DNA from: Patescibacteria group bacterium
Lineage (GTDB): Bacteria > Patescibacteriota > Patescibacteriia > UBA11705 > JABHMO01
Reading direction: 5' to 3'
NCBI GenBank assembly: GCA_018818405.1
Contig: JAHIRY010000024.1
Coordinates: 1-40,606, forward strand
DNA length: 40,606 nt
This document shows positions 16,314 through 33,040 of this stretch, one piece after another; position 1 is the stretch's first letter; the number at the start of each line of letters is the position of its first letter. The notes below the pieces were generated by a model. The model was not told the origin of the DNA. It did no database searches and saw only the letters and a program-made list of their open reading frames with translations. The position numbers and the translations under genes are program-made.

Positions 16314-17927
16314 TTATTTCAATTCAAGCAAATAAACCGAACCGTCGGTAAAAAACATGTCGCCGACAAAATTTTTTCCCAAAAAAGGCTCGACTAATTT
16401 TTCTTTTTTCGAATCAACGATTTCATTTGCCGCGGACAAATCGTTGAACAGCAAATCTCGGTCGCCATCAATATTCGGATCTATCCGATGAACAAGCGCC
16501 CATTTTATTCCCACATCCAGACTGACTGTGCCGACATAAATACTTTTTCCGTCCCGCGTTCGCAGATTGGTCTTCCAAAATCTGGCGTGATGCCGCGAAC
16601 GAACGGAATCAGCCGCTGTTGATTTTTCAAATCCGAAATCATGAACTTCCGCGTTCCAAAATGAAGGCGTCATTGGCGCTGAATCATAACTTTTGTTCAA
16701 AAGCGCCGCATAACCCATATCAACAGCCGTGGAAAAATTTATGGGCGCTGCCGCTTGCCAGCCGGCTGATTCAAAATCCCTGACCAAACTTTCATCATCT
16801 CTCGCAGACAAAACAATGCTGATGGGTTCTTGCGAAATGCCTGTCAATGTTTCAGTATACTTCGGCAATTTGAACCGCTCAAAAATATCTTGCGACAAAT
16901 AATCGATTTGCTTTACATTCGCCTGTCCCAAAATATTATATTCAGGCTGATAGAGGCTGATCTGAAAAACGAAAAAGATCAGGAAAATTATCACCAAGCA
17001 GACAGACCGAATTTTCGCTTTGCGGCTGAGATGAATCGCCGTGGCTTCGCCGCGGCGGAAATAATGGTATTTCAAAATCATTATGCCGATAATAAACCAG
17101 CACAAACCCAGCAGATAACCGCCCCAGACATCAGTGAAAAAATGAACGCCCAAATACAGCCGGCTAAATCCGATTAACAATGATAAAATCAAAAAGGAAA
17201 AAAATATATTCAATTTAACTTTCCATTTTTTTGCATTTGCGATAAAAAAATACGCGATAAAACCGTAAAGAGCGATGGAAGTCAGCGCGTGAGCGCTCGG
17301 GAAAGCGGATGATTTTTCAATGTAAAAAGCCACATCCGGCCGCGGCCGATCAATCCAAAGTTTGATCAAAAAATTCGCCGCCTCACTGCCGATAATTGTA
17401 ACGCCAAACGGCAAAAGGTATTCCTTCTTTTTCCAAATAACCAAAATCGCGCAAAAAACGATTGTCGCGGGAACAACCATGATCACAGAACCGAGCAAAG
17501 TAATGGAAAGGAATAATTTCGTTAAAATAACATTTCTGAATGAGAACAATAAACTGGCGATGTGAATGTCAGTGTCTTTGATAATTTGCGTATTCATGAC
17601 ATCGAAAAGTACGCCGGCAAATGAAATCGCGAAATAAATCAAAGCGATTGACAGCAAAGTCAGAGTTAATCCGGAAAAATTTTTTCTGCTCAGTCGATGT
17701 TTGACAAAAGTGAAAAAGCGCGGATGCTTGTTCAAAATCCTCCGAACATCTTCATTGCGGATAAATCCGTCGAGCATTGAGAAAAAAACCGATTTCAAAA
17801 AGGCAAACCATTTTTTCCCGTACTTGATCAGAAAAAATTTGATCAAAAGTATAATGCTCAAAATCGCGCCGAAAATAATCAGCAAAAATTCCAATCGGCC
17901 GTCGCCAAACCACGCCAGTATTTTCAT
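16314..17927 (-). CDS. PAP2-family phosphatase fused to LssY-like C-terminal domain
   Basis: KLWIDRPRP ... SFPSAHALTS ... SRLYLGVHFFTDVWGGYLLG (PAP2 signature); C-terminal region resembling LssY-C; start reset to MKILAWF. Confidence 0.88.
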   Translation of the reverse strand: MKILAWFGDGRLEFLLIIFGAILSIILLIKFFLIKYGKKWFAFLKSVFFSMLDGFIRNEDVRRILNKHPRFFTFVKHRLSRKNFSGLTLTLLSIALIYFAISFAGVLFDVMNTQIIKDTDIHIASLLFSFRNVILTKLFLSITLLGSVIMVVPATIVFCAILVIWKKKEYLLPFGVTIIGSEAANFLIKLWIDRPRPDVAFYIEKSSAFPSAHALTSIALYGFIAYFFIANAKKWKVKLNIFFSFLILSLLIGFSRLYLGVHFFTDVWGGYLLGLCWFIIGIMILKYHYFRRGEATAIHLSRKAKIRSVCLVIIFLIFFVFQISLYQPEYNILGQANVKQIDYLSQDIFERFKLPKYTETLTGISQEPISIVLSARDDESLVRDFESAGWQAAAPINFSTAVDMGYAALLNKSYDSAPMTPSFWNAEVHDFGFEKSTAADSVRSRHHARFWKTNLRTRDGKSIYVGTVSLDVGIKWALVHRIDPNIDGDRDLLFNDLSAANEIVDSKKEKLVEPFLGKNFVGDMFFTDGSVYLLELK

Positions 17928-18007
17928 ATTTAATAAATTTAAAACAAAAAATTCATTCCACCTATAAACTCTTGATAAATTATAACTCAAAAAAGTTGAA
18001 TTTTCAA

Positions 18008-18832
18008 TTAAAAAGAAAACGGATTCGTCTTTTCAAAGTCAGGAACAAATGTTTCACTGCTCCCCCGCTCCTGAACCCAGCCATTGTTCAATCCCGATTC
18101 CGATTGTTTATCAAAAACTTTTTCAAAATCAGATTCATCCAAAGTTTTGTTTATTTCCGAAAAATCTCCGGCATTGAAAACCGGAAAATATTGATTCATC
18201 AGACTGACATGAATTTCTTTGTCAATATTTGAAATGATTTGCAAAGCTTTAAAACTGTTTTCCAAATTATCAGGCAATACCAAATGGCGGACGATGATTC
18301 CGGTTTTCGCGATTCCATTTTCATCGAGTTGAAGATTTCCCTTTTGCCGAAACATTTCTCGTAGCGCTGACTCGGCAACCGCCGGATAATTTTTCACTTG
18401 CGAATATTTTTCCGCGATTTTTTCATCGCCGTATTTAAAATCCGGCAGATAAATATCAACAACATCTTCAATTTGCTGCAACATTTCCACGCTTTCAAAC
18501 GCGTTTGAATTCCAGACAATCGGCAGATTCAATCCTTTTTCACGCGCCAATAAAATTGATTGCCTTATTAACTGCCACCAAATCGTCGGCGTCACCAAAT
18601 CAATGCAAACCGCGCCGGCGCGCTGTAATTCCAACATTATTTCCGACAATTCTTCAACCGAAAAATATTTTCCCAGCGAATTCTGCGAAATCTGAAAATT
18701 CTGGCAAAAAACGCAATGCAAATTACAGCCGCTGAAAAATATCGCGCCCGCGCCTTGATTTTCACTTCCTGAAATCGGCGGTTCTTCGCCGAAATGTTTT
18801 CCAAACCAAGCGATTTTAATTTTTTCATTCAT
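18008..18832 (-). CDS. radical SAM protein, PflX/COG1313-like (pyruvate formate-lyase-activating enzyme-related)
   Basis: EEPPISGSENQGAGAIFFSGCNLHCVFCQNFQISQ (CxxxCxxC), DLVTPTIWW; start reset to MNEKIKI. Confidence 0.88.
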   Translation of the reverse strand: MNEKIKIAWFGKHFGEEPPISGSENQGAGAIFFSGCNLHCVFCQNFQISQNSLGKYFSVEELSEIMLELQRAGAVCIDLVTPTIWWQLIRQSILLAREKGLNLPIVWNSNAFESVEMLQQIEDVVDIYLPDFKYGDEKIAEKYSQVKNYPAVAESALREMFRQKGNLQLDENGIAKTGIIVRHLVLPDNLENSFKALQIISNIDKEIHVSLMNQYFPVFNAGDFSEINKTLDESDFEKVFDKQSESGLNNGWVQERGSSETFVPDFEKTNPFSF

Positions 18833-18870
18833 AAAAGAAAAGCAGACCCGATGCAGGCCTGCGATAAATT

Positions 18871-19215
18871 TCACACCTCGGAACTGGCAAAGCCTTCTTC
18901 CATATTGAACGGCTCAACGAAACATTCAACAAAATCATTGGGGGAAAATTGCTTTATCACCGCCACAATCGCTCGCGCCATCATACTCCGAACTTCCGGA
19001 GTTCTCTCCGCTCGAGCAAACAAACCGCGGACAAAAACGATTTTCTCAAAAAGAAACGGCGGTCTCGCGTATTCAGCCGGAAAAATACAGGAAATTTGAT
19101 TTTCCGAAAGCTTCAATTCTTCGATATTCGCGATGTTTTCTCGCAGTTTTTTCCGCAATTCGGGAATGTCCAGTTCCTCCCCTTCCCTAATTCCGTATAC
19201 AATGATAACCGGCAT
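18871..19215 (-). CDS. small 4-oxalocrotonate tautomerase-like protein
   Basis: Starts Met-Pro (MPVIIVYGI), compact 114 aa; remote similarity judged by eye. Confidence 0.5.
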   Translation of the reverse strand: MPVIIVYGIREGEELDIPELRKKLRENIANIEELKLSENQISCIFPAEYARPPFLFEKIVFVRGLFARAERTPEVRSMMARAIVAVIKQFSPNDFVECFVEPFNMEEGFASSEV

Positions 19216-19253
19216 GGCTGGCCTCCTTGTTCAAAGCGGTTGCGCGGCAAAAC

Positions 19254-19820
19254 TCATTCATTGACTCGCTCGCAGTATTCTCCGTTGGTTGTATTTACCA
19301 GCAATGTGTCGTTTTCCTTGATAAACATGGGCGCGCGGATTTTCAGACCGTTTTCCAGAGTCACTTCTTTCATTACTTTTCCGCTGGCTGTGTCGCCTTT
19401 TACGGCCGGCGGCGCTTCTATCACTTTGTACTGAATTTTTCTCGGCAATTCGATCGCCACCACCGATCCATTGTAAATAATCGCGTCAACATCAATTCCT
19501 TCTTTTAAATATTTCGCGTCATCTCCCAGATCTTCTTCGCTCAGATCAAACATTTCATAAGTTTCCTGATTCATAAAAGAATACATGGCGCCGCTCTTGT
19601 ACAAGTACTGCACTTTTTGGCGGCTGACTTCAACAATATCAATGTTTTCTCCGCTTTTGTATGTCACTTCAACGGTTTTTCCGCTGGTGATGCTTTTCAT
19701 TTTTGTTCTGGCGAATGCTGAACCTTTGCCCGGATTGACAAATTCCATTCCCTTTACCACATACAAATCATTTTGATGTTTTATAACCGCGCCCTTTTTC
19801 AAGTCTGATGTGCTTGCCAT
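19254..19820 (-). CDS. efp: elongation factor P
   Basis: VKGMEFVNPGKGSAFARTKMKSITSGKTVEVTYKSGE; KGDTASG; C-terminal NTTNGEYCERV; modifiable Lys present in PGKG loop. Confidence 0.97.
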   Translation of the reverse strand: MASTSDLKKGAVIKHQNDLYVVKGMEFVNPGKGSAFARTKMKSITSGKTVEVTYKSGENIDIVEVSRQKVQYLYKSGAMYSFMNQETYEMFDLSEEDLGDDAKYLKEGIDVDAIIYNGSVVAIELPRKIQYKVIEAPPAVKGDTASGKVMKEVTLENGLKIRAPMFIKENDTLLVNTTNGEYCERVNE

Positions 19821-19837
19821 ATTCTTTTCTTATTAAA

Positions 19838-20857
19838 TTAAAATAATTTTGACATTGGTAATGTTATCACATTGTCGATTTCTTGGCAACCGGTGAACAG
19901 CATTGCCATTCGATCAATGCCGAGCGCGATTCCCGCGGATTCCGGCATTCCGGCTCGCAACGCGCCAATGAATTCTTGATCAATATCATAAACATCTTTT
20001 CCTGTTTTCTCCCGAAAATTCCGTTCTTCCCGCAATCTTGATTCCTGTTCATCCGCGTCTGTCAGCTCGGAAAAAGCGTTTGCCAATTCCAGTCCGTTGA
20101 AATAAACTTCAAACCGTTCCGCGTAGCGGCTGTCTTTTTCCAACAGTTTCGCGAGCGAAGCCATTTGCGCGGGATATTCATGAACAATCAGAGGAACATC
20201 AATTCCCAATTTCGATTCGATTTCATTCAGAAAAATGCGATAAAACAATTCCTCATAACTTTCTTCTTTGGAAACATTGTATTTTTTTCCCACGCACAGT
20301 TCGAACATTTTTTCTTGAGTAAGAAAATCATCCAGATTGATTTGCAAAAATTCATGCCACAAACTTTTCATTGTTTTTCGCTGCCATTGTTTTTTTATTT
20401 TCGCCAAATTAATTTTATCAATTCCATTGTGTCCCTCTGTTTTTTCCGCAATGAAATGAAACAGATTTTCCGCGTCATTCATAATATCAACATAATTTTT
20501 CCCGACGCGATACCATTCCATCATGGTAAATTCCGGATTGTGCGATCCGCCGAAACTTTCGCGGTCGCGAAAACATTTTCCCAGATAAAAAATATTTTCA
20601 AATCCGGCTGCCAGCATTTTTTTCATCGCATATTCGGGCGAAGTGTGAAGGAATCCGCTGAATTCAACAATTTTTTCATTGTGAATATTTATTTTCATGG
20701 GAACGATATTCGGTTCTTGACCGGGAACATTCACAATCAACGGAGTTTCCACTTCAGTAAAATTTTCTTTCCAAAAAAATTCCCGAACCAGCCGGAGAAT
20801 GAAAAACCTTGTTTCCAATAATTCTTTGTTCGTTTGGATGTGCGTCAGATGGTTCAT
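19838..20857 (-). CDS. epmA: EF-P lysine ligase EpmA/GenX-like (class II LysRS paralogue without anticodon-binding domain)
   Basis: LHTSPEYAMKKMLAAG, IFYLGKCFRDRE, HNPEFTMMEWYR, EYPAQMASLAK, YFNGLELANAFSELTDADEQ, GIALGIDRMAMLFTG; no N-terminal OB domain; start reset to MNHLTHIQ. Confidence 0.93.
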   Translation of the reverse strand: MNHLTHIQTNKELLETRFFILRLVREFFWKENFTEVETPLIVNVPGQEPNIVPMKINIHNEKIVEFSGFLHTSPEYAMKKMLAAGFENIFYLGKCFRDRESFGGSHNPEFTMMEWYRVGKNYVDIMNDAENLFHFIAEKTEGHNGIDKINLAKIKKQWQRKTMKSLWHEFLQINLDDFLTQEKMFELCVGKKYNVSKEESYEELFYRIFLNEIESKLGIDVPLIVHEYPAQMASLAKLLEKDSRYAERFEVYFNGLELANAFSELTDADEQESRLREERNFREKTGKDVYDIDQEFIGALRAGMPESAGIALGIDRMAMLFTGCQEIDNVITLPMSKLF

Positions 20858-24995: not shown

Positions 24996-25349
24996 TCAGA
25001 CATTTTTTAAATATTTTTTTATTCTTCCCTTATCCTCATTTTGTTTGTTGCCCTTAAAATAAATTTCTATAAATTCGATTCCAATCATTTCAACTACCTG
25101 ATAATCTTCAATATATGCGTAAATCATTCTTAAATCTTTCTTTTTTAAATTCCGGCAAAAAAATCTGGCCTTAACGATATAGATTGAACCTGACCTCGTA
25201 ATAATATTAAAATGTTTCCCAATACCCAACGGAAATTCACTCAAGATTTTTTTAAACTCAAATAAATCATTATCCAACATAATAAATTTTTTGGATAATT
25301 TTTTAAAATCTTTTAAAAATTCTTTGGTGCACCTAAAGTTCATCTTCAT
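24996..25349 (-). CDS. putative RelE/ParE-superfamily toxin
   Basis: CTKEFLKDFKKLSKKF...IYIVKARFFCRNLKKKDLRMIYAYIEDYQVVEMIGIEFIEIYFKGNK: small basic protein in RelE/ParE layout, overlapping the upstream antitoxin-like gene. Confidence 0.65.
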   Translation of the reverse strand: MKMNFRCTKEFLKDFKKLSKKFIMLDNDLFEFKKILSEFPLGIGKHFNIITRSGSIYIVKARFFCRNLKKKDLRMIYAYIEDYQVVEMIGIEFIEIYFKGNKQNEDKGRIKKYLKNV

Positions 25350-26109
25350 AGTTTCTTACCGAGTGATCATCATCGCGGTAAAAAACAGTTTCGTAGCTAA
25401 TTTCTTCTCCTACTTGATGAACTCTCCATGGGGTATCGGAATGTGAATAATTACTTAATTCCGTGGCATTTTTCCATGCTAACCGCGCTAAAACTTCATC
25501 TATATGCTGAATCTCTTGAGCCGACAAAATCTTTAAATCAGCTTGTCGGCGAGGCAAGTATTTTTTTTGCTCATGCTGGAAATAAGTGCTTTTAACCTTT
25601 TCCAGCTCTCCATCATTTATCATTTCATCCGTTATTTTTTTAAATTCAACCGGAGTAGGACCAAAATGATTTTTGATATATCGCGCGCCAATCAGTTGCT
25701 CTTCAAATTTTTCATAGTAGTCAAAATCTATAAAATAAAGTAATTTATAAATGGCAGTCTCGCCAATGTTTGGTCTGGCACCGACTTTTTCCAAAACATA
25801 AAGCAAAACCTCCTTAAACTTTTCAAGATTTTCCTGCGGAACATTGATGCGCAATTCCGGTTTTTCTTTTTTAATTTTGTTTTTTCCTTTTTCAATTTTC
25901 ACAATCGCGGAATTTTCCTTGCCCTGCAAAAAACCATTAAAACCAATGCAAAAAAAACCGGCCAGCTTTTTTGCTTCGGTAATGGTTAAATCCCGTTCGC
26001 CCGCCTCTATCTGAACATAGGTCGGACGAGAAACACCAATAATGGACGCCAGAAATTCCTGCGTCAATTTTTGTTTTTTTCGTTGTTCCAAAATAAATTT
26101 GCCGAGCAT
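25333..26109 (-). CDS. XRE HTH + Panacea (DUF4065/SocA-like) domain antitoxin
   Basis: HTH: LGKFILEQRKKQKLTQEFLASIIGVSRPTYVQIEAGER; Panacea-like: ETAIYKLLYFIDFDYYEKFEEQLIGARYIKNHFGPTPVEF...YLPRRQADLKILSAQEIQHIDEVLARL...ATELSNYSHSDTPW; start reset to MLGKFIL. Confidence 0.85.
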   Translation of the reverse strand: MLGKFILEQRKKQKLTQEFLASIIGVSRPTYVQIEAGERDLTITEAKKLAGFFCIGFNGFLQGKENSAIVKIEKGKNKIKKEKPELRINVPQENLEKFKEVLLYVLEKVGARPNIGETAIYKLLYFIDFDYYEKFEEQLIGARYIKNHFGPTPVEFKKITDEMINDGELEKVKSTYFQHEQKKYLPRRQADLKILSAQEIQHIDEVLARLAWKNATELSNYSHSDTPWRVHQVGEEISYETVFYRDDDHSVRNYEDEL

Positions 26110-26197
26110 ATATCTATTTACAGAATAAGTCTTGTAAATTTTTTTGTCAATTATAATGTTAATAATTTTAACAATCATCAACTCTATTGCTTTATCT

Positions 26198-31315: not shown

Positions 31316-32443
31316 TTATTCTATTGCCTGCAAATATTCAAAACTTTTTCCTTCGTAATTTTTCAATTTCACTTTTTCCTCGCTTATTTCTTCAATGTAT
31401 TTCGGCATGGCCGGGATTTTTCCTCCGCCGCCGGTCGAATCAATCACATAAGTCGGCACGCCGAGACCGGAAGTAAATCCGCGCAAGGATTTATATATTT
31501 CCAATCCTTTTTCAACTCGCGTGCGGAAATGGTTTGTTCCTTTTACCAAATCAGCCTGGAAAATATAATAAGGCCGAACTCGCATTGACAAAAGTCCTTG
31601 CATCAATTCTTTCATTGTCTGCGGATCATCGTTCACTCCGCGCAATAAAACCGTCTGACAGCCGAGAGGAATTCCCGCGTCAGCCAGCAGAGCGCAGGCG
31701 CGCCGGCTCTCCGCTGTAATTTCATTCGGATGATTGAAATGAGTATTTATGAACAAGGGATGATATTTTTTCAATATTTTGCACAACTCCGGAGAAATTC
31801 TCTGCGGCAAAACACAGGGAATGCGAGTGCCGATGCGAATAATTCCATTTCTCGGATTGATAATTTTAAATACGGCGCTTAAAATCTTTTCCAGCTGATC
31901 ATTCGAAAGCATCAGAGGATCGCCGCCGGAGAGAATAACATCGCGCAATTCGGAATGCCGGGAAATATATTCGAGAGCTTCATTGATTTCCTCATCTGTC
32001 GGCTGTTTTTGCGGATCGCCGACTTTTCTCTTTCTGGTGCAAAATCTGCAATACATGGCGCACCTGTTTGATACTCTAAACAGCACTCGATCAGGATAGC
32101 GATGAGTGAGTAGAGCAGGAATTCCCTCGCGCGATTGGTGTTCAGGCTCTTCATGCAGAGGATCTTCCAGACCGACCTCATCAGTCAATTCTTCGGCGGA
32201 AGGAACGCATTGTTTGTAAATGCCGTCGCCTTTTTCTCTAATCAATGACAAATAATATGAGCTGATGATTGCCGGATATTTCTCGCAAATTTTTGCAATC
32301 TCTAACTTATCAAGGCCGAATTGCTCGGCGATTTCAACTGGAGAGCTTATTGTTTTCGTAACCGTTTCCTGAGCAGGGGAAGGGTCATCTTCGTCTTCTG
32401 AACCCGATTCCGCACAATCCTTTCTTTCAAAGAAAGAAAACAT
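31316..32443 (-). CDS. lysine 2,3-aminomutase (KamA-like radical SAM)
   Basis: HRYPDRVLFRVSNRCAMYCRFCTRKRKVGDP (CxxxCxxC), LRDVILSGGDPLMLSND, RIGTRIPCVLPQRI. Confidence 0.93.
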   Translation of the reverse strand: MFSFFERKDCAESGSEDEDDPSPAQETVTKTISSPVEIAEQFGLDKLEIAKICEKYPAIISSYYLSLIREKGDGIYKQCVPSAEELTDEVGLEDPLHEEPEHQSREGIPALLTHRYPDRVLFRVSNRCAMYCRFCTRKRKVGDPQKQPTDEEINEALEYISRHSELRDVILSGGDPLMLSNDQLEKILSAVFKIINPRNGIIRIGTRIPCVLPQRISPELCKILKKYHPLFINTHFNHPNEITAESRRACALLADAGIPLGCQTVLLRGVNDDPQTMKELMQGLLSMRVRPYYIFQADLVKGTNHFRTRVEKGLEIYKSLRGFTSGLGVPTYVIDSTGGGGKIPAMPKYIEEISEEKVKLKNYEGKSFEYLQAIE

Positions 32444-32554: not shown

Positions 32555-33040
32555 TTAATTCATTGCGATTCCCCTCGCCCACTCGGCCGCGCGCTTCGCT
32601 TCAGCTTCTTTGTCGTGTTTTAGCGGTTCGCGAAAATCAATCGCTCCGACAAATTCATTTCCCGCCAATCGCTTTTTCATTTTGTTCAATGTTCCGCCCG
32701 GCGCGCCGCCATGACAGCAAAAAAGAGCGATTTTTTTATTTTCCAATTTTACATTTGAAAAAAATGTATTCACCGGCGGAGCATATTTTAAAGCCCAGAC
32801 CGGAGTTCCAAGAAAAACAAGATCATAATCAGCGCAATTTTTTTCCAAAGATTCCAGTTCCGGTTTTCCGCCCATGATCGCTTGTCTGCCGCCCCAAAAA
32901 TATCTGAGAAAACCGCTTGCGGGAACTAATTCTTTTTTTGGTTTCAATTCCAGAATATCAGCGCCGATCGACTCTGCGATTTTTTCTGAAATAAATTTCG
33001 TGTTTCCGTCGAGGGAATAATAAATTACAAGAATTTTCAT
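32555..33040 (-). CDS. flavodoxin-family protein
   Basis: MKILVIYYSLDGNTKFISEKIAESIGAD..DYDLVFLGTPVWALKYAPPVNTF. Confidence 0.9.
   Translation of the reverse strand: MKILVIYYSLDGNTKFISEKIAESIGADILELKPKKELVPASGFLRYFWGGRQAIMGGKPELESLEKNCADYDLVFLGTPVWALKYAPPVNTFFSNVKLENKKIALFCCHGGAPGGTLNKMKKRLAGNEFVGAIDFREPLKHDKEAEAKRAAEWARGIAMN

Follow-up and report, generated by a model that had tools for sequence, protein, structure and literature searches.

The patescibacterial DNA analyzed here, a stretch of 40,606 nucleotides referred to below as the window, probably encodes a module for the (beta-)lysylation of EF-P. It pairs EpmA with EF-P and would be supplied by a KamA-type aminomutase; a tautomerase-fold protein would be a chance neighbor and a radical SAM protein a neighbor at the level of one family. 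KamA would convert L-lysine to beta-lysine, standing in for EpmB, as its residues and its co-occurrence with EpmA across the phylum suggest. By the established chemistry of its family, EpmA would then activate the lysine isomer and ligate it to the PGKG Lys of the adjacent EF-P, and the lysylated EF-P would help the ribosome through proline runs. More interesting than the locus itself is the phylum-wide want of a recognizable substrate-making enzyme in genomes that carry EpmA.

EpmA and its adjacent EF-P

ORF inspection found four genes head to tail on the minus strand, in the order epmA, efp, tautomerase-fold gene and radical SAM gene (Table 1). These are the same four close-set genes that a sequence-only reading of this DNA had described, on one strand and in that order. 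The gap between epmA and efp is 17 nt and that between efp and the tautomerase gene is 38 nt. The ORF listed for the radical SAM gene starts at GTG 18874 and overlaps the tautomerase stop; this start is probably wrong, because relatives start at the equivalent of ATG 18832, and alignment with them places the probable start at that ATG, which would leave a gap of 38 nt after the tautomerase stop. The interval contains the strongest hairpin in the scan, with 9 pairs (6 of them G-C), possibly a terminator or leader structure, though as evidence it is weak, since its folding energy is unremarkable (z = -1.3). After this GC-rich hairpin comes TTTTCTTTT, which ends at the likely start codon of the radical SAM gene.

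Table 1. Features of the four-gene run and of the kamA region in the window
Feature	Coordinates	Strand	Details
epmA	19838..20857	-	ATG 20857, stop 19838; 339 aa; TIGR00462, 3a5z, Ala pocket residue
efp	19254..19820	-	188 aa; NPGKG loop; TIGR00038/PRK00529 above cut-off
Tautomerase-fold protein gene	18871..19215	-	114 aa; Met-Pro start; AlphaFold2 model
PflA-like radical SAM gene (presumed PflX/COG1313 type)	18008..18832	-	PF04055, invariant CX3CX2C, model; probable start
Terminator-like hairpin and T-rich tail	18842..18862	-	Between tautomerase stop and likely radical SAM start
kamA (L-lysine 2,3-aminomutase-like)	31316..32443	-	375 aa; TIGR03820 439 bits; 2a5h E=6e-105
Flavodoxin-like gene	32555..33040	-	PRK07116 65.7 bits, below cut-off

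Elsewhere in the window, 24996-26181 holds what seems to be a toxin-antitoxin pair: a 117-aa protein of no family (24996-25349) and, next to it, a helix-turn-helix protein that has a SocA/Panacea antitoxin domain (25333-26181). A fusion of a PAP2 phosphatase with an LssY C-terminal domain is encoded at 16314-17990, downstream of the radical SAM gene, and a homologue of it is found directly downstream of efp in a sister genome (G002).

The first gene of the run encodes a LysRS catalytic core without the anticodon-binding domain, PF00152 being its sole Pfam match. It passes the curated TIGR00462 cut-off (336 against 286.9 bits), and among solved structures it matches E. coli EpmA/GenX (3a5z) best, with an alignment spanning nearly the full length; the EpmA-like ligase of the earlier reading is confirmed by both. 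Members of the EpmA family activate a lysine isomer and ligate it to a Lys of EF-P, which helps the ribosome pass proline runs. One pocket position, presumed to set the preference for beta-lysine, is Ala in the window's EpmA (A311) and Gly in LysRS. Across the surveyed genomes it was found to be Ala in 68 of 71 EpmAs and Gly in all 11 LysRS.

The adjacent gene encodes the single EF-P found in the window's genome. It passes TIGR00038 and PRK00529 and, as the earlier reading had it, carries the target Lys in NPGKG, at the tip of the beta3-beta4 loop. Eleven genomes of the window's order were surveyed (G000 being that of the window), and EpmA was over the cut-off in G000, G002, G005, and G006 only. 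All four of these genomes have Lys at the EF-P modification site; the six EpmA-less genomes with an EF-P have Arg (G003, G004, G009, and G010), Gln (G001), or Met (G007) there. Among these six EF-Ps (L062-L067, from G004, G010, G003, G009, G001, and G007, respectively) the Arg type has a GRGG loop, and neither lysylation nor rhamnosylation by the known routes is possible for the Gln and Met types.

The linkage of the two genes extends through the phylum. efp accompanies epmA at about 39 of the 43 EpmA loci from Patescibacteria, and in nearly all of 40 further EpmA loci (about 5-6 kb on each side, as far as the contig allowed) efp adjoins epmA or is at most about 2.5 kb away. In the EF-P tree the four EpmA-linked EF-Ps of the order group together (100/96), beside the EpmA-linked EF-Ps of family f8, in one clade with EpmA-linked EF-Ps from other families of the class, and stand well apart from the order's other EF-Ps. 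The tree fits a cassette inherited or transferred as a unit. EpmA and EF-P are well supported as a modification pair. In several families of the class (L107, L112, L118, L120, L125, and L127) epmA-efp is found directly downstream of rpsF-ssb-rpsR. This conserved trio was considered as the missing beta-lysine enzyme and rejected, as it consists of ordinary genes.

KamA and the probable supply of beta-lysine

The cluster had looked odd because the beta-lysine enzyme seemed absent. The sequence-only reading had missed a lysine 2,3-aminomutase-like gene in the same window, kamA, 11 kb upstream of epmA. KamA passes the subfamily model TIGR00238 (265 against 199), and its best-scoring equivalog is AblA (TIGR03820), whose cut-off of 525 bits lies above its score; against EpmB (TIGR03821) it scores 206 bits, under a cut-off of 369. 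Compared with the solved Clostridium enzyme 2a5h, it retains the equivalents of the cluster cysteines C125/C129/C132, of R134, of D293 and D330, which hold the substrate side chain, and of the PLP lysine K337. The window's KamA may work like EpmB though it is filed outside EpmB. The flavodoxin-like gene is directly upstream of kamA, and its product is a possible electron donor for the radical SAM enzymes.

Of the 382 genomes in the phylum sample, 18 have a KamA-family protein, and 15 of the 18 also have EpmA, which itself occurs in 46 of the 382 (Fisher p=1e-12). In three genomes (G040, G167, and G383) kamA adjoins the epmA-efp genes or is within about 1.5 kb of them. Because this association is so strong in the phylum, beta-lysylation is the best explanation for the window. 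Several points count against supply by KamA. It was not detected in the EpmA-bearing sister genomes G002, G005, and G006, and given this absence it may have been added late and serve a different purpose. Moreover, clostridial KamA makes the (S)-isomer and E. coli EpmA prefers the (R)-isomer, and the scores of the window's KamA, nearer to AblA than to EpmB, speak against a stand-in for EpmB. KamA-like proteins at three loci (L163, L164, and L172, from G297, G383, and G322) have Glu aligned at the PLP-lysine position (GKVE, not GGGGK); these may represent another aminomutase subfamily or an alignment shift.

Patescibacteria mostly have small genomes and are thought to be host-dwelling. When the phylum and class samples were joined, 117 genomes were found to carry EpmA and 21 of these a KamA/EpmB-family protein. 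In the other 96 such a homologue was undetected at the thresholds used (phylum sample, 1e-30; order, 1e-20; 80 further or repeated genomes, 1e-10), in a sample where many genomes are in numerous contigs and by a search that a wholly unrelated beta-lysine synthase would escape. Controls, E. coli and B. subtilis among them, behaved as expected, and the absence holds in one-contig genomes that are 97-100% complete (G217, G227, G330, and G448). Where examined, EF-Ps of KamA-less EpmA genomes (loci among L068-L096 and L214-L238) keep PGKG.

A survey in 2010 found yjeA without yjeK in two organisms only, against 200 with both (PMC2821294). A comment of 2015 listed no identified partial systems other than those of Buchnera and Micavibrio, and raised the question of a trend among obligate symbionts (PMC5354580). 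The Patescibacteria bear on that question, as the EpmA ligase is kept and the substrate enzyme seemingly lost in about four-fifths of their EpmA genomes. Our literature search found no paper on a missing aminomutase in Patescibacteria, or on EpmA together with the Candidate Phyla Radiation, though papers beyond those searched may exist. Uptake of beta-lysine, use of alpha-lysine, and an unknown beta-lysine synthase become directly testable options.

Two of these options have also to be weighed for the window itself. EpmA might attach plain alpha-lysine, or an isomer taken from the host or surroundings, with KamA serving another purpose such as lysine catabolism or an osmolyte. This is rather unlikely here, since the window genome does have KamA and the association of KamA with EpmA is strong; no AblB-like acetyltransferase gene was recognized beside kamA in the window. 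Furthermore, the pocket Ala is kept in 53 of 55 EpmAs of genomes without KamA, which, if the residue has the role we presume, argues that beta-lysine is still the substrate. On the other side stand the 96 EpmA genomes without KamA/EpmB, near-complete one-contig genomes included, and what is known of PoxA, which also accepts alpha-lysine though beta-lysine is preferred (PMC9437257) and which is present without YjeK in Buchnera APS (PMC5354580). Supply of beta-lysine by KamA is the preferred reading for the window.

The tautomerase-fold and radical SAM neighbors

The 114-aa protein encoded downstream of efp matched no Pfam or NCBIfam family, and a PDB sequence search gave only leucine-rich-repeat noise, which was discarded. 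Its AlphaFold2 model (pLDDT 79) is built of two beta-alpha-beta units, and Foldseek matched the model to MIF, 4-OT, cis-CaaD, and DUF1904 structures with probability 1.0, at E-values of only 1e-4 to 1e-2. All four aligned sequences share Met1-Pro2. By its modeled fold and N-terminal Pro, the protein is assigned to the tautomerase superfamily, in agreement with the Met-Pro tautomerase-like label it had been given. Weak homologues (25-38% identity) were found in G002, G003, G005, G007, and G009 by the search of the order, and none of those inspected is near efp or the radical SAM gene. Among the genomes surveyed the tautomerase gene adjoins efp in the window only, and neither it nor the radical SAM gene occurs in any of the 40 further EpmA loci, within flanks of about 5-6 kb. 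It is probably a passenger or chance neighbor at the locus, although the packing of all four genes like one operon counts against a bystander reading of the two extra ones.

The last gene of the run encodes a protein that matches PF04055 and has a CX3CX2C motif, invariant in the family alignment. Its model (pLDDT 85) is nearest to pyruvate formate-lyase activating enzyme (3cb8/3c8f). The glycyl-radical activase equivalogs are far under their cut-offs (NrdG2 42 against 131 bits, PflA 25 against 232), and no glycyl radical enzyme partner was recognized among the window ORFs. The COG1313/PflX label comes from the earlier reading and from the family motif; of that description the radical SAM assignment and the PflA-likeness of the model stand, and for the name the family libraries yield only PflA- or NrdG2-like hits far under their cut-offs. 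The literature search found no paper linking COG1313 with radical SAM. The family reaches Bacillota, Planctomycetota, Lentisphaeria, and haloarchaea.

Within the order, close homologues (53-57% identity) are found in the same four genomes that carry EpmA. The gene order is epmA-efp-tautomerase-radical SAM in G000, epmA-efp-radical SAM in G005, and radical SAM-epmA-efp in G006; in G002 epmA-efp is on one contig and the radical SAM gene on another, beside rlmI. The window's family thus has the gene in all four EpmA-bearing genomes, linked to epmA-efp in three, and in neither of the two without EpmA. Co-occurrence in the order gives p=0.003, with four genomes that may share ancestry, as the LysRS tree lacks resolution. 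Such company at the family level exceeds easy drift and is suggestive (4/4 against 0/2, in six genomes).

The wider samples give a different picture. In the phylum sample the radical SAM profile was found in 10 of 382 genomes, of which two carry EpmA. In the class sample it was found in 25 of 326, five of them with EpmA, four of which are of the window's family; 85 of the 90 EpmA genomes of the class are without it. EpmA thus occurs in 5 of 25 carriers against 90 of 326 genomes overall (Fisher p=0.49, the 90 having been counted after removal of three genomes with a LysRS-length match only). When the window's family is left out, 1 of 21 carriers has EpmA, fewer than expected (p=0.02), and in that sole genome the two genes are about 295 kb apart. 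The units of these tests are genomes, not independent events. Since there is no class-wide co-occurrence, the association of the radical SAM protein with EpmA is a property of one family.

An all-against-all comparison of 34 radical SAM loci found no recurrent neighbor except an ABC-transporter-like gene in 5-6 loci; apparent neighbor clusters on the opposite strand were rejected as shadow ORFs. In other phyla EpmA was not found near the radical SAM gene within the 3-15 kb of sequence examined, and an EpmA-length match was present elsewhere in 3 of 9 genomes. The radical SAM protein is a family-level neighbor, and EpmA function does not in general depend on it. The sequence-only reading had proposed that both extra proteins may take part in a new EF-P modification, to be checked by gene neighborhoods. 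The neighborhoods revealed no conserved linkage for the tautomerase, an efp neighbor only here, and a new modification route involving it is unlikely. For the radical SAM protein the proposal keeps its footing within the family, through the linkage in G000, G005, and G006, and loses it class-wide.

What survives of that proposal is a radical SAM protein dedicated to EF-P modification in this family, altering the substrate of EpmA or EF-P once it is modified, and perhaps making up for the lack of KamA/EpmB in three of the four genomes. We consider this improbable. Its presence in every EpmA-bearing genome of the family and in neither EpmA-less one, its linkage in differing gene orders, and its occurrence in G002, G005, and G006, which lack KamA, fit a dedicated part. 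However, 20 of the 25 carriers of the class have the gene without EpmA, among them G294 and G482 with close orthologues, and a Parcubacteria genome with a 57%-identical orthologue (L022) has no EpmA. Nearly all EpmA genomes of the class do without the gene, as do f6 and f8, the families with the nearest EF-Ps. In addition, the modeled fold is PflA-like, not of the PLP-binding aminomutase type, and the terminator-like hairpin separates the gene from those upstream. If true, a radical SAM protein replacing or adding to EpmB-type chemistry would be an undescribed EF-P modification. Lastly, that the run is accidental packing of a compact genome, with even EpmA, EF-P, and KamA not cooperating, is barely credible: gene order around epmA-efp does vary among relatives, and the tautomerase and radical SAM genes are not conserved, but epmA and efp adjoin each other across the phylum, and Lys34 follows the presence of EpmA.

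Comparison with known systems

The proposed KamA-supplied module is closest to the E. coli EpmA-EpmB-EF-P pathway (PoxA/YjeA and YjeK), with which it shares an EpmA above the cut-off, an adjacent efp, the PGKG Lys, and an aminomutase family member in the genome (PMC2821294). In contrast to that pathway, the window's aminomutase is of the KamA/AblA type, falls short of the EpmB cut-off, and is encoded 11 kb away; the window showed no EpmC (YfcM) hydroxylase, and two extra genes are found downstream of efp. The partial systems of Buchnera and Micavibrio (PMC5354580), with ligase and EF-P and no substrate enzyme, resemble 96 of the 117 patescibacterial genomes, three of the window's family included. 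The window genome differs from them in having an aminomutase, and the patescibacterial pattern is phylum-wide rather than one of single eroded genomes.

Of the two radical SAM enzymes, the window's KamA shares with KamA/AblA of 2a5h the CX3CX2C motif, R134, D293, D330, and K337; it is shorter (375 against 416 aa), with most of the C-terminal part missing, and has no recognized AblB gene beside it. The second shares core fold and cluster motif with PflA/PflX (COG1313) proteins, and a HFGEEPP...GCNLxCVFCQN signature is common to it and its Bacillota, Planctomycetota, and haloarchaeal relatives. Unlike PflA/PflX, it has no recognized glycyl radical enzyme beside it and scores far below the cut-offs of the activase families. 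The EpmA-EF-P pathway is known already; what differs here is that EpmB's place seems to be taken by an enzyme of the KamA type.
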